A stretch of DNA of 64,000 nt. Origin: TM7 phylum sp. oral taxon 349 (GTDB taxonomy: Bacteria > Patescibacteriota > Saccharimonadia > Saccharimonadales > Saccharimonadaceae). Under the pieces are notes generated by a model. It had not been told where the DNA came from. It made no database searches and was given only the letters and a program-made list of their open reading frames with translations. The stretch spans positions 558,001-622,000 of the forward strand of contig CP072328.1 in the NCBI GenBank assembly GCA_018127705.1. Direction: 5' to 3'. Both the position numbers and the translations under genes were made by a program. Below, in pieces: positions 41,440-45,382 of the stretch. Each line of letters opens with the position of its first letter. The stretch's first letter is position 1.

Positions 41440-42480
41440 GCTACGTATCCAACTCAAAACCTCTGCAACATCTCCCTAGGCGTGCGTAACTGTATACCTA
41501 AGCGTACACGATGGTTGTTGTAGTAGTCTAGGTATGACGTTAGCTGTGCCTGGACTTTTTGTATGCTGTCTTTGGCTGTTATGGTTCTGCCGGTGCATTC
41601 ATCTTGCAGGGTGCGGTTAAAGCGTTCGATGTGGGCGTTGTCGTTGGGTCTGCCGAGGCGGCTGTGTCTGGTAGGTATGCCCGCTTTCTTCAGGGTCTGC
41701 TCAAAGTAACGGCCATATTCTGGTTCATTGTCGCTCTGCACCATAGAGATGGTAAAACCCCACCGTTCCCGGGCTTCAAGCACCGCCTGGGCGGCTAGCC
41801 CTGGGCGCAGCTTAGTAGCTAGAACAGCGTGAGTCATTCTGGTGTAGAGGTCAATAACAGTATAGTAATACAACCGTTTGCCGCTGTATGGGTCAACGTA
41901 GTGAATAGTATCGGTTTGGACTAGTTCGCCTGGAGCAGCGGCTGGCGGGCGCTTGGGATTACTTTTCTTTACCCTAGGTTTTCTAGCGCCATCGAAGCAG
42001 TGGTGGCGCTGGAGGATGCGCCGTACGCTGCTGAGGCTAACCTTAATCCCCAGTCTATTGTTTACGTAGTGCCAGACAGCTTCAGCCGCAGCGCTTTAGT
42101 TTTTCTCTAGCTTCTAGGACTGCTTTAACTATATGCTTTGGTATAGCCCGAGAGTTGCTGTGCGGACGCGAGGAGAGGGTTGGGATGTTCCAGGTGCAAG
42201 CCTGCAGCTTAAACTTGGATACGGGCGCCTATCCCGGGGATGTAGCCGGCAGGCTTAATCTGGCGGCTAATGCGGTTGTTGTTAACGAAACAGAGGTTAC
42301 TGTTTTGCTGTTGCCATTTCTTAAGCCAGCGCCAAATAGTACTGCGGTTAACCCCCAAGCGCAGTGCAACTACTCCAACTGGCAGCTGCTCCTGAATGAG
42401 CAGCTTCATAGCATCGCCTCTAGCTTTAGGAGCACTAGAATTGGTATTATATGCCATAGCAGGTCTTCCTTTCTGTAATT
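41440..42480 (-). mobile_element. IS481-type element, decayed
   Basis: The transposase is in two main pieces. The N-terminal helix-turn-helix part (42209-42457: LPVGVVALRLGVNRSTIWRWLKKWQQQ) and the C-terminal integrase-core part (41454-41873: YTVIDLYTRMTHAVLATKL, MVQSDNEPEYGRYFEQTL with the second Asp, NAHIERFNRTLQDE with the Glu, YLDYYNNHRVRLGIQLRTP) are separated by frameshifted sequence. Clear terminal repeats were not found, so the limits are approximate. Confidence 0.75.
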
Positions 42481-42548
42481 AGTTGTTGTAACTACAGTTT
42501 ACGAGGCCTGCTTTTTGGTTGCAAAGGTGGTGGGTTGGTACGAAAGTA

Positions 42549-42579
42549 TTGACTTTAGGCGGCAAGTATGGTATATAAT
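42549..42579 (+). promoter_or_regulatory. Promoter of the hammerhead-bearing transcript
   Basis: TTGACT (42549-42554) and TATAAT (42574-42579) with a 19-bp spacer, or the overlapping TATATA (42572-42577) with 17 bp. Start expected near 42586, just before the first hairpin. Confidence 0.65.
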
Positions 42580-42676
42580 ATATCAGCTTTTGTTGAGAGT
42601 TCAATGCATCCTGCATTACGAAGGACTCTCCAAAAGTGTTCATTGACAAGCAATCTGAAGAGAGGGGGTGGCCACC

Positions 42677-43006
42677 ATGGCCACCAACAACATCGACGCT
42701 CGGTTCTTCTCTCAGGACGCAGTGTGCTGCGTTCTTAGGGGACTTACCCCCTCTTCGCGCGAGACGAGAAGGGAGGTAGAAGACCTTAAGAGACATCTTC
42801 TGTCTTATTTCTGTAACGTCATCACCATGTATATGCACGTCAGTAAGATGGAGACGTATTCTGGCGTCGTAGATGCCGTCGCTTTTTGGTGGTTGGAGGT
42901 TCTCTCCAACCACCAGCCCTCGTGGCGAGGAGGCTCTCTCCTCGTCACCCCAGCGCCTGAGGAGGCGTTGGATTACTACCTGGATAACGTGGTGGCGCAA
43001 GCCTAA
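42677..43006 (+). CDS. Small ORF within structured transcript 1
   Basis: A 109-residue ORF starting at an ATG in the loop of a GGTGGCC/GGCCACC hairpin, preceded by GAGAGGGGG as ribosome site. The product (ATNNIDARFFSQDAVCCVLR..., a Trp-containing AVAFWWLEVL and LDYYLDNVVAQA) matches no family I know. The coding sequence is constrained by the overlapping hairpins; the stop lies in the loop of the 15-bp terminal stem. It may be translated, or the ORF may be secondary to RNA structure. A 207-residue ORF on the other strand is taken as a shadow. Confidence 0.5.
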   Translation: MATNNIDARFFSQDAVCCVLRGLTPSSRETRREVEDLKRHLLSYFCNVITMYMHVSKMETYSGVVDAVAFWWLEVLSNHQPSWRGGSLLVTPAPEEALDYYLDNVVAQA

Positions 43007-43102
43007 CCACGTTATCCAGGAGGGGGGGCGAATATGACCCTGCAGCCTTAGACTTTGCCCGGGTTTGTTTATTCCCGCCTTTCTCTCTGATCTGCTTGTC
43101 AT

Positions 43103-43157
43103 ATTCGCTCCATAGGTGCGTGCCTATGCTGATGAGTCCAAAAGGACGAAAGCGAGT
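43103..43157 (+). ncRNA. Type III hammerhead ribozyme
   Basis: All catalytic elements are present in order. Stem III: 43103-43109 with 43151-43157 (one G-U). Cleavage triplet CUC, cut expected between C43110 and C43111. Stem I: CATAGG (43111-43116) with CCTATG (43123-43128), loop TGCGTG. Core CTGATGA (43129-43135). Stem II: GTCC/GGAC (43136-43139/43144-43147), loop AAAA. Core GAAA (43148-43151). Stems I and II are closed, stem III is open: type III. Activity is inferred from sequence. Confidence 0.9.
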
Positions 43158-43276
43158 TGGCCCTAATAGGTTAAATTAATTAGGTACAGCAAAGACCCAT
43201 CCTATTAATGTATCGTGGTTTGCGCCCGCTTCCATACTGGTTGATCGTACCGACATTACGCAACGCAGACATATAC

Positions 43277-43305
43277 TTGACAAAATATCCATCCTGTGTT
43301 ACAAT
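43277..43305 (+). promoter_or_regulatory. Consensus promoter of the 43.3-kb gene
   Basis: TTGACA (43277-43282), 17-bp spacer, TACAAT (43300-43305). The ATG at 43313 is 7 nt after the -10, so the transcript is expected to be leaderless. Confidence 0.8.
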
Positions 43306-43312
43306 GAAAACC

Positions 43313-43762
43313 ATGAGTAGTTTAGAGAGGAAATATTCAAATAACAACCATAATGATACGCATGAGGTACCATTAAGGAATCGTCTGCGTACCAGAATTG
43401 CTGCAGGAATGCTAGCAGTAGCAGCAGCATTCGGCGTTAGCAGTTTGTCTCACGAAGGCAATACCGATAATGCTCCGCAGCAAGAACTTGCTTGCGTTTC
43501 AGAGGAGACCACGTTTGCTGGAATCCACGATACGACTAACGAGCTCACAGAGCGTGTTGCAAAAGATGGTAAAGAATACAGCTGGCCTGTCATGATATAT
43601 GATCGTCCAACGGAGAATATGAGATACCGCGAAACAAACGGTATGTCTGTCGATGAGGATGCTCGTGTTGAAGTAACAGTATGCCGAGATGATAATGCCT
43701 TATATAATTTATACGCTAGAGTTAATTCATTAGAAAGCTATCCTAAAGAAAGCGACCAGTAA
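43313..43762 (+). CDS. Putative secreted or anchored small protein
   Basis: A 149-residue protein. The N-terminal ~30 residues are polar and basic, then a single hydrophobic segment (IAAGMLAVAAAFGVSSLS) acts as signal anchor or signal peptide. The exported part has two cysteines (ELACVSEE and VTVCRDDN) that could form a disulfide. No family recognised. The start is decided by the promoter; an ATG at 43304 overlaps the -10 box and cannot be used. Followed by a tetranucleotide repeat and a terminator. Confidence 0.6.
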   Translation: MSSLERKYSNNNHNDTHEVPLRNRLRTRIAAGMLAVAAAFGVSSLSHEGNTDNAPQQELACVSEETTFAGIHDTTNELTERVAKDGKEYSWPVMIYDRPTENMRYRETNGMSVDEDARVEVTVCRDDNALYNLYARVNSLESYPKESDQ

Positions 43763-43987: not shown

Positions 43988-45382
43988 CTAGCATGTTTCA
44001 CCCAACCGCCCCGCTGCGCACAGCTGCTCATACAGCTCACCGAGCATATACATTGACCCGACAACAACAATAGGACGATCATGCTGGAGCGCAGCGTTGA
44101 ACGCGTCGATCGGGGTGTCAAATTGTCTGACATTCTTCATGTTGCATACGCTAATAACCGCCGCGAACTCTTCCGGTTTCACGCTATAATTCTGTAAATG
44201 AGGTGATGGCATGTCACGGAAGAACTGTGTAATATACACCCTGTCTGCCAAATAACCGATTGTCTCAAGCGACCCCCTCCAGTCCTTGCCATGCTTTGCT
44301 GCAAAAATAACCAACGGGCGATGCCATTCTGGACGATGTGCAAGTTCACTTAAAAATGCTGCAATCTTCTGCGGATTATGCGCGCTATCCACCATTACGT
44401 TGCGCCCATCAAGATGCCACACATTTGCACGACCTGGCAACTCCGCTTCTAAGAGCGCTTGGCGCGCCATATCAAACGAAAAATCCCAGCCATCGCGCGT
44501 TGCCAAAAATCGTACCGTATCCAGCGCAACCGCCGCATTTTCCATCTGGTAATCACCCGGTGTCTGTGTCTCCATCGGTTCGCCGCGATACAAAAATTCA
44601 ACACCCGTCTCTGTTCGAGATTGCAACGATACATACTTCAATGGCTCACTCCAAATAATTTGCGACTGGCGTCCGTATGCAACTTCTTCAAGCACTGCCC
44701 GCACTGAATCTTGTTCCGGTCTCAATGCAACAACCGTGCCGCCGTAGGGGATGATACCAGCCTTTTGCCAAGCGATTTCTTCAAGCGTGTTGCCTAAAAT
44801 CTCGGTATGATCAAGTCCGAGGCGCGTAATAACCGCTAATTTGTCTGACCGACGCACCGTGTTTGTAGAATCATAACGACCGCCCAGTCCCGTCTCAATC
44901 ACGCCATAGTCAACATGATGAGCTTCAAATAACCTCAGTGCTAGCGCATTCGTTACTTCAAAATATGTCGGGCGACCATATGGCGTATATTGCATTGACC
45001 GCACATAAGGAATGAGGTCAGCGGTAGCTTTGGTAAACTTAGCTTCACTTGGCAACTCTATATTTATCTGCGCACGTTCGCGAACGTCAAATACGTGCGG
45101 CGAAACGTGTAATCCGTTCGTTTTGCCATGTGCTTTCAAAAGATTGGCAATAAAATAGCTCGTCGAACCTTTACCGCTCGTGCCGGCGATGTGAATAATC
45201 GGGAACGATTCCTGCGGATCACCTAGCAGTGCAAGCCATGCTCTCGCTCGCTCAAGCCCCACTGCGCCACGAAACACCGCATTGCCAAGTGACGGCAAGT
45301 CGTCAAATAAAAATCTCTTTGCATCCGAGAATGCTTGTATATTGCCAGACAACGGCACGGTTTGGTTCTTGCGAGTCGCCAT
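43988..45382 (-). CDS. folC: Folylpolyglutamate / dihydrofolate synthase
   Basis: Mur-ligase-type ATP-dependent enzyme that adds glutamate to folates, 464 residues from the ATG at 45382. ATP loop IHIAGTSGKGSTS, metal/folate region VIETGLGGRYDSTN, GLDHTEILGNTLEEIAWQKAGII (family signature), and the C-terminal domain VMVDSAHNPQKIAAFL. TATAAT (45390-45395 on this strand) is 7 nt upstream: leaderless. The ORF is open to 45418 but that start would lie upstream of the promoter. Confidence 0.9.
   Translation of the reverse strand: MATRKNQTVPLSGNIQAFSDAKRFLFDDLPSLGNAVFRGAVGLERARAWLALLGDPQESFPIIHIAGTSGKGSTSYFIANLLKAHGKTNGLHVSPHVFDVRERAQINIELPSEAKFTKATADLIPYVRSMQYTPYGRPTYFEVTNALALRLFEAHHVDYGVIETGLGGRYDSTNTVRRSDKLAVITRLGLDHTEILGNTLEEIAWQKAGIIPYGGTVVALRPEQDSVRAVLEEVAYGRQSQIIWSEPLKYVSLQSRTETGVEFLYRGEPMETQTPGDYQMENAAVALDTVRFLATRDGWDFSFDMARQALLEAELPGRANVWHLDGRNVMVDSAHNPQKIAAFLSELAHRPEWHRPLVIFAAKHGKDWRGSLETIGYLADRVYITQFFRDMPSPHLQNYSVKPEEFAAVISVCNMKNVRQFDTPIDAFNAALQHDRPIVVVGSMYMLGELYEQLCAAGRLGETC

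Follow-up and report, generated by a model that had tools for sequence, protein, structure and literature searches.

Pairing between the 5' and 3' untranslated regions of a message is known from bacterial mRNAs such as icaR of Staphylococcus aureus, in which no ribozyme is known to take part. The units described here share with such mRNAs the pairing of a 5' leader with the 3' end, but differ in that the paired strand adjoins a predicted self-cleaved end. Hammerhead ribozymes were reported in prophages by a 2011 survey, the available text of which has them flanking single genes, for instance ardA in A. tumefaciens, and suggests that they process transcripts (PMC3088659). A paper of 2023 found bacterial hammerheads and twisters to be enriched near certain genes, for a reason that its available sections call unknown (PMC10085705). 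In those same portions, both sources describe the function of hammerheads in bacteria as open. Our literature search, which covered few subscription papers and no preprints, found no paper on hammerhead or other self-cleaving ribozymes in Saccharibacteria, Patescibacteria or the candidate phyla radiation.

The hammerhead studied here lies in a 64-kb stretch of DNA (the window, by which we mean the whole stretch analysed) from a Saccharibacteria genome that consists of a single contig of 1,021,750 bases. Going by the available text of the 2011 survey, prophage hammerheads likewise adjoin small genes that stand singly, among them an anti-restriction gene; the Saccharibacteria units differ in being chromosomal, in the promoter-like site that precedes many of them, in the 3' position of the ribozyme, in the end-to-end helix present in part of them and in their folded coding region (PMC3088659). 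The association with genes seen in the accessible part of the 2023 paper holds here too; what sets the present case apart is a definite anatomy, with a function that can be tested, in a single lineage (PMC10085705).

The hammerhead and its relatives

In the first-pass annotation, 43103-43157 of the forward strand had been described as a type III hammerhead, complete and located on a bacterial chromosome. When every stem, the core and the triplet were rechecked base by base, all elements and coordinates proved correct. Stem III joins 43103-43109 to 43151-43157 in seven pairs, one of them a G-U (43104/43156); stem I joins 43111-43116 to 43123-43128 in six Watson-Crick pairs, with a possible additional U-G (43117/43122); and stem II joins 43136-43139 to 43144-43147 under an AAAA loop. 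CUGAUGA stands at 43129-43135 and GAAA at 43148-43151, while the cleavage triplet C43108-U43109-C43110 places the predicted cut between 43110 and 43111. The core CUGAUGA...GAAA, the NUH cut site, the loop-closed stems I and II and the open stem III are those of type III, and the three helices and the stem III-open permutation are shared with Rfam RF00008, from which the window's hammerhead differs by its stem II of four pairs with a four-nucleotide loop and by a score below the Rfam cut-off. The annotation had named a search with the Rfam hammerhead model as a check, and the lack of a hit to any model as evidence against its claim. RF00008 does match, aligning to 43109-43151 at 28.1 bits (E = 0.0012, permissive settings, search of 1001 bases); this is below the gathering score of 48.5, which is a curated detection cut-off and not a defining property of type III hammerheads. 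At the gathering threshold there was no Rfam match anywhere in the 64-kb window, nor did any hammerhead in the 16 related loci tested reach it, so that annotation at the curated cut-off may overlook such hammerheads.

Taken alone, the core pattern CTGANGA-N(4-30)-CGAAA does not reach significance: it has three matches in the window versus 0.94 expected, and at least three in 7 of 100 shuffles. The decisive evidence that the predicted hammerhead goes beyond chance is conservation. A BLAST search with 42600-43180, made without any structure model, gave matches in 48 of the 198 genomes of the family, a count that includes the own genome (best E 1.1e-22). Outside the own genome, every match listed is located at the hammerhead or close around it; the longest extend over 43091-43156, many cover part of this stretch, and the longer ones are 77-94% identical. 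Among 17 aligned sequences, 95.4% of cells are paired and 43 cells have changed on both sides, compared with 13.5 in shuffles, a value that none of 500 shuffles reached. Two-sided changes affect 12 of the 18 pairs and all three stems covary; the shuffles were never as high on four of five measures (0/500), and were so in 10/500 on the fifth. T22 and G23, in the numbering of the first row (the end of stem I and its loop), are invariant in these 17 sequences, which may bear on a possible tertiary contact between loops I and II. With 95 sequences, in an alignment fitted to the model, there are 440 two-sided cell changes versus 122.

A covariance model built from the 17 copies found matches in 76 of 295 family genomes and 29 of 61 genera (E up to 0.01), leaving 219 of the 295 without a match, and in 66 of 246 genomes of the order (E up to 0.001), with up to 19 copies in one genome and more than 100 copies in the sampled family genomes; these genomes are related, and the counts are not statistically independent. 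The window's own 86.7 bits is not an independent score, because its sequence is among the 17 that made the model, whereas the BLAST result is independent. Sequence, covariation and the family of relatives thus support the first-pass reading of a complete type III hammerhead, as a predicted ribozyme, and we conclude from the comparison of sequences that it is genuine and one of a large family in Patescibacteria. The window's hammerhead is the one good match to the model in its own genome. One weak match lies about 159 kb away (L107, G000:C1:442221-442278; 18.6 bits, E 0.06), shortly 3' of a gene, and reads like a decayed hammerhead.

Anatomy of the unit and its closing helix

All parts of the window's unit lie on the forward strand. 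A putative promoter read from the sequence (42549-42579) combines TTGACT at 42549-42554 with either TATATA at 42572-42577 (spacer 17) or TATAAT at 42574-42579 (spacer 19); a strict promoter scan of the region did not report it. It is followed by a predicted 5' terminal hairpin of the transcript (42586-42637), which folds alone at -19.3 kcal/mol, and by the 5' strand of a candidate end-to-end, or closing, helix, GACAAGCA (42645-42652), which contains the subclass motif GACAAG and is complementary to 43093-43100. An apparent ribosome-binding site, AGAGGGGG, at 42661-42668, precedes an ORF of 109 aa at 42677-43006 (a GTG start at 42668 is possible), whose synonymous codons favour folding (codon-shuffle z = -4.6). 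A perfect 15-bp hairpin at 42979-43020 spans the stop codon. At 43025-43038 lies a local arm which, by complementarity and folding, could pair with 43098-43111 and so block stem III and the closing strand. The 3' strand of the closing helix, UGCUUGUC (43093-43100), was recognized by its complementarity and falls within the BLAST stretch, with the predicted cut ten nucleotides after it. The small ORF that the annotation had placed about 100 nt before the hammerhead is thus there, with its stop at 43004-43006, 104 nt ahead of the cut, and its "hairpin-rich transcript" is borne out by folding of 42560-43180 at z = -9.1 relative to 20 shuffles. A terminator scan of 42450-43450 returned one terminator-like site, inside the ORF, and no hairpin with a U-run at or after the hammerhead in that interval.

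The 109-aa protein appears to have no convincing relatives in the databases and genomes searched: none in Pfam, PADLOC or PHROGs, no confirmed one in GTDB or IMG/VR contigs (a search sensitive to close relatives only), one chance-level phage match (E 7) and weak matches in family genomes, the best at 0.005. Just ahead of the promoter ends an insertion sequence (window 41454-42549) that carries two ORFs, one with an rve integrase core and one with an HTH, and the junction between it and the unit is repeated at 97% identity over 72 bases at another locus of the genome, L108. L108 and a further locus, L109 (G000:C1:545000-552000 and G000:C1:786000-793000), are own-genome units that have a near-identical promoter, a hairpin at the 5' end and, in their ORFs, many hairpins in a row; neither matches the hammerhead model, and by eye a long stretch 3' of the ORF is common to both. 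The neighbours of the window's unit are, judging from their translations, presumably DHH-type, folC-type and ATP synthase genes. In a look-up for an empty site, G129 alone of 13 genus members besides the own genome had the folC-type neighbour, and homology stops at 43996, which gives nothing firm.

Comparison across the family shows a predicted ribozyme placed about 90 nt after an ORF, with promoter-like sites, folded leaders and excess folding, and with a closing helix in part of the units. ORFs were sought within 170 nt of the ribozyme by a simple rule, which for one unit at least (L133) settled on a questionable frame, and they end 29-166 nt before the cut (median 89) in 83 of 93 units. The closing helix has a rank of 1 or less against 100 shuffles in 31 of 93 units, where about 2 are expected, compared with 3 of 92 for a control on the downstream side. 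The other 62 fail this strict test, the window's unit included, since its 8-9 contiguous pairs do not rise above shuffles alone. An earlier test, with the 5' sides of 40 other units as control, put 29 of 92 units in the top 3 of 41. An anchored test picks units without regard to complementarity: CTTGTC stands before the ribozyme in 28 units, and GACAAG occurs 200-1300 nt upstream in 26 of these 28 (about 0.27 per unit by chance), both counts including one indexing artefact (L210). Beyond this six-base core, pairing extends over 4.96 pairs within units versus 3.89 between units (0 of 5000 permutations); in the window's unit it extends over only 2. The same pairing is made by different sequences in L070 and L117 (16 bp each), L091 (17 bp), and L111 and L128 (14 bp each).

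In 28 of the 31 passing units, which were chosen for complementarity, the cleaved RNA as a whole, folded at minimum energy, has at least half of the closing helix formed; in L068, L143 and L067 an alternative fold beats it by 2.5 to 10.1 kcal/mol. A sigma-70-like site scoring at least 10/12 lies just upstream of the 5' closing strand in 21 of 28 units (1.6% of shuffles), three of the 31 being too close to the locus end for this test. Between promoter-like site and 5' strand, the related leaders fold at -3.9 to -25.6 kcal/mol. Many family units would, on this anatomy, be whole transcripts, running from promoter through 5' hairpin, 5' strand and folded small ORF to the complementary 3' strand and the hammerhead.

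The messages themselves are unusually folded. The 400 nt before the ribozyme have a median folding z of -2.97 (n=92) versus -0.51 for control open frames of the same loci (n=90; p = 4e-13), and with protein and codon counts fixed the medians are -1.77 (n=83) versus -0.69 (n=86; p = 1e-4). Just before the ribozyme stands a strong hairpin (score at least 24) in 26 of 92 family units, versus 2/90 and 2/92 in controls, and such hairpins recur in all sets, phage contigs included (26/92, 32/93 and 46/107, with 1-2 in each control). GC3 of the unit ORFs is 0.70 versus 0.48, and AGG makes up 0.16 versus 0.09 of their arginine codons. AGG is rare in actinobacteria. We considered that the mRNA might be made for an actinobacterial partner cell and rejected this, as GC3 is high but AGG is raised too, a combination that fits folding better.

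Distribution, cargo genes and mobility

In species genomes the exact core pattern occurs in at least 118 stretches. Among the 80 matches listed, 63 carry names that we take, grouping by taxonomy, to belong to the Patescibacteria group, 15 are named "bacterium" only and 2 are other bacteria (L150, L165). Viral contigs hold 69 stretches with the core pattern. In a further set, which had played no part in the discovery, the closing helix passes in 7 of 23 Saccharibacteria units, 4 of 16 from "bacterium"-only sources and 1 of 50 at other loci. This set of 89 units was left from 94, with 16 passing rows and a downstream control of 3/85, after removal of the artefacts L149, L156, L178 and L210; by eye, one of the 4/16 (L213) is an inverted repeat, and two of the 7/23 (rows of L338) pair with the hairpin arm of a neighbouring unit. 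On phage contigs, in a set without artefact cleaning, the helix passes in 5 of 105 units versus 13 of 96 in the control. Being nearly absent outside Saccharibacteria and not above control in phages, the closing helix is therefore no general rule for bacterial hammerheads, and we rejected it as such.

Several loci differ in arrangement. A Parcubacteria locus (L160, S40-23) has nine hammerhead matches on one strand of an 8-kb stretch, each preceded by a hairpin with an arm starting TGGG. Four tandem units about 600-650 nt apart make up L132 (G026:C13); their ORFs seem to be related to one another, and the stem II loops of their hammerheads are longer and vary. The viral contigs (L265-L333) carry one to several hammerheads, and in 42 of their 46 strong hairpins the arm ends 5-6 nt before the cut.

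We scanned 70 of the 83 unit ORFs for known families, leaving out 13 doubtful-looking ones; the family names are annotations, predicted only. Pfam (E up to 0.001) placed Tad4, a family of Thoeris inhibitors, in three (L073, L144, L116), and by eye L133 also has a Tad4-like reading, in another frame than the ORF picked. The remaining matches were to the RNA polymerase alpha C-terminal domain, NUDIX and glycosyltransferase (two each) and to DUF4419, DUF350, YfbU and Band 7 (one each). Ten PHROG families match among the 70 ORFs, and phrog_9822, the most frequent of them, does so three times; some of the cargo proteins thus have relatives in phages. Five PADLOC models match weakly (best 8.9e-5). 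A phage origin of the window's own unit is not supported, as its DNA matched nothing in the phage and plasmid records searched.

Thirteen of 192 units have tRNA genes on the same strand no more than 1.7 kb upstream, fourteen such genes in all, and one further tRNA gene is on the opposite strand. At L146 the last 19 nt of a tRNA-Glu are repeated 261 nt after the ribozyme end, about 1.09 kb overall; a repeat of such length is found in 1 of the 13 tRNA-adjoining units, the next best being 12 nt. In the relative G057 the stretch with the repeat lies 54 nt after its own tRNA-Glu, and no clean empty site was seen for L146. In a relative of L068 (G179), whose flanks are 95% and 86% identical, 3.3 kb of other DNA lies between the same tRNA-Trp and the flank. 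The shared flank begins at the exact 3' end of the hammerhead, with the same first base in G173 and G138, which suggests, at this one locus, that cassettes are exchanged and that the end of the ribozyme marks a border.

Proposed role of the ribozyme

We propose that the ribozyme trims the 3' end of a small protein-coding mRNA whose ends then pair non-covalently, in place of a terminator, and we put the probability of this reading at roughly two in three, slightly reduced because the window's own unit is not among the 31 that pass. RNA polymerase would start near 42549-42579, make the 5' hairpin, the leader strand, the ORF and the complementary strand, and read through the hammerhead, which would cut at 43110/43111 and so remove all downstream RNA. 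Hammerhead cleavage, as a matter of general chemistry, leaves a 2',3'-cyclic phosphate. The 5' leader strand would then pair with the strand before the ribozyme and close the mRNA end to end without a covalent bond. The message would then begin with a hairpin and have a strongly folded coding region, and not much of its tail would be accessible. What the cell probably gains is a long-lived mRNA with a defined end that replaces an intrinsic terminator. Cleavage, the chemistry of the end, closure in the cell and stabilisation are what we infer from the anatomy described above.

Another role, which we consider unlikely, is that of a mere separator that cuts read-through transcripts between neighbouring genes, the end-to-end helix being irrelevant. 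The hammerheads of L087, L098, L130 and L135 do lie directly before the apparent ribosome-binding site of the next gene, that of L127 abuts the next promoter-like site in a tandem array, and a closing helix is missing from most units that are not from Saccharibacteria; the 2011 survey, in its available text, also proposed that long phage transcripts are processed (PMC3088659). This role fits poorly, however, with a promoter-like site just upstream of the 5' closing strand in three quarters of the units scored (21/28), or with a closing helix that covaries and is specific to matching ends. Less probable again is a switch, in which a local hairpin would cover the 3' closing strand together with stem III on its 5' side and so keep the ribozyme inactive; the hairpin would give way to the 5' leader or to a ribosome at the stop codon. 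Folds of the window are compatible with one: before cleavage the local 14-bp helix 43025-43038/43098-43111 outdoes the hammerhead and closing helix together by 1.5 kcal/mol, which could make for a slow ribozyme, while in the cleaved RNA forcing the closing helix costs nothing (-240.8 kcal/mol, equal to the minimum) versus -237.7 for the local alternative, 3.1 kcal/mol in favour of closure. Local arms also match 82-104 nt before the cut in the GCTTGTC subclass, over 16 bp in L133, L143 and L146 (the full 16-nt test segment) and 13 in the window and L138, and a longer scan allowing G-U gave pairing of up to 26 bp; in 7 of the 107 cases scored, the end of the pairing coincides with the cut. Over all 93 units, though, local pairing is modestly above control (16.0 vs 13.8), and the same arms that may hold the ribozyme off may instead simply seal the 3' end after cleavage.

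Some Obelisks carry hammerheads, and a type III hammerhead next to an ORF and extreme folding recalls such agents. We regard it as highly improbable that the unit is the chromosomal DNA copy of a covalently circular, viroid-like or retrozyme-like RNA. The unit has one hammerhead and so lacks two processing sites that would free both ends, its predicted fold is branched and not a rod, and the lack of phage or plasmid records that match its DNA also speaks against this origin. RtcB (PF01139) was found in 0 of 148 family genomes, with 9 of 14 control genomes positive, and we reject covalent closure by this enzyme; moreover, the promoter-like site at the 5' end of the unit means that this end would be a triphosphate. 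Set beside retrozymes and viroid-like circular RNAs, as the available text describes them, the unit has the hammerhead and the strong folding in common, and differs in having no second ribozyme, no RtcB found, a promoter-like site and a chromosomal location (PMC13096302).

The reading of a trimmed and base-paired mRNA can be extended, more tentatively and at somewhat under even odds, to a message format of Saccharibacteria as a group. The units would then be mobile single-gene cassettes, some with anti-defence-like (Tad4-like) genes, and their exchange would take place beside tRNA genes, the hammerhead's 3' end forming one border. Their mRNAs, trimmed at the 3' end by the hammerhead, closed into a non-covalent circle and folded over the whole coding region, would offer no end for a nuclease. 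The proposed trimming and closure would give bacterial hammerheads a testable job, as the anatomy predicts the RNA ends, the base-paired closure and the effects of compensatory mutations. If the proposal is true, bacteria would have in these units a natural example of a closed-loop mRNA, and stable mRNAs a design that is compact.
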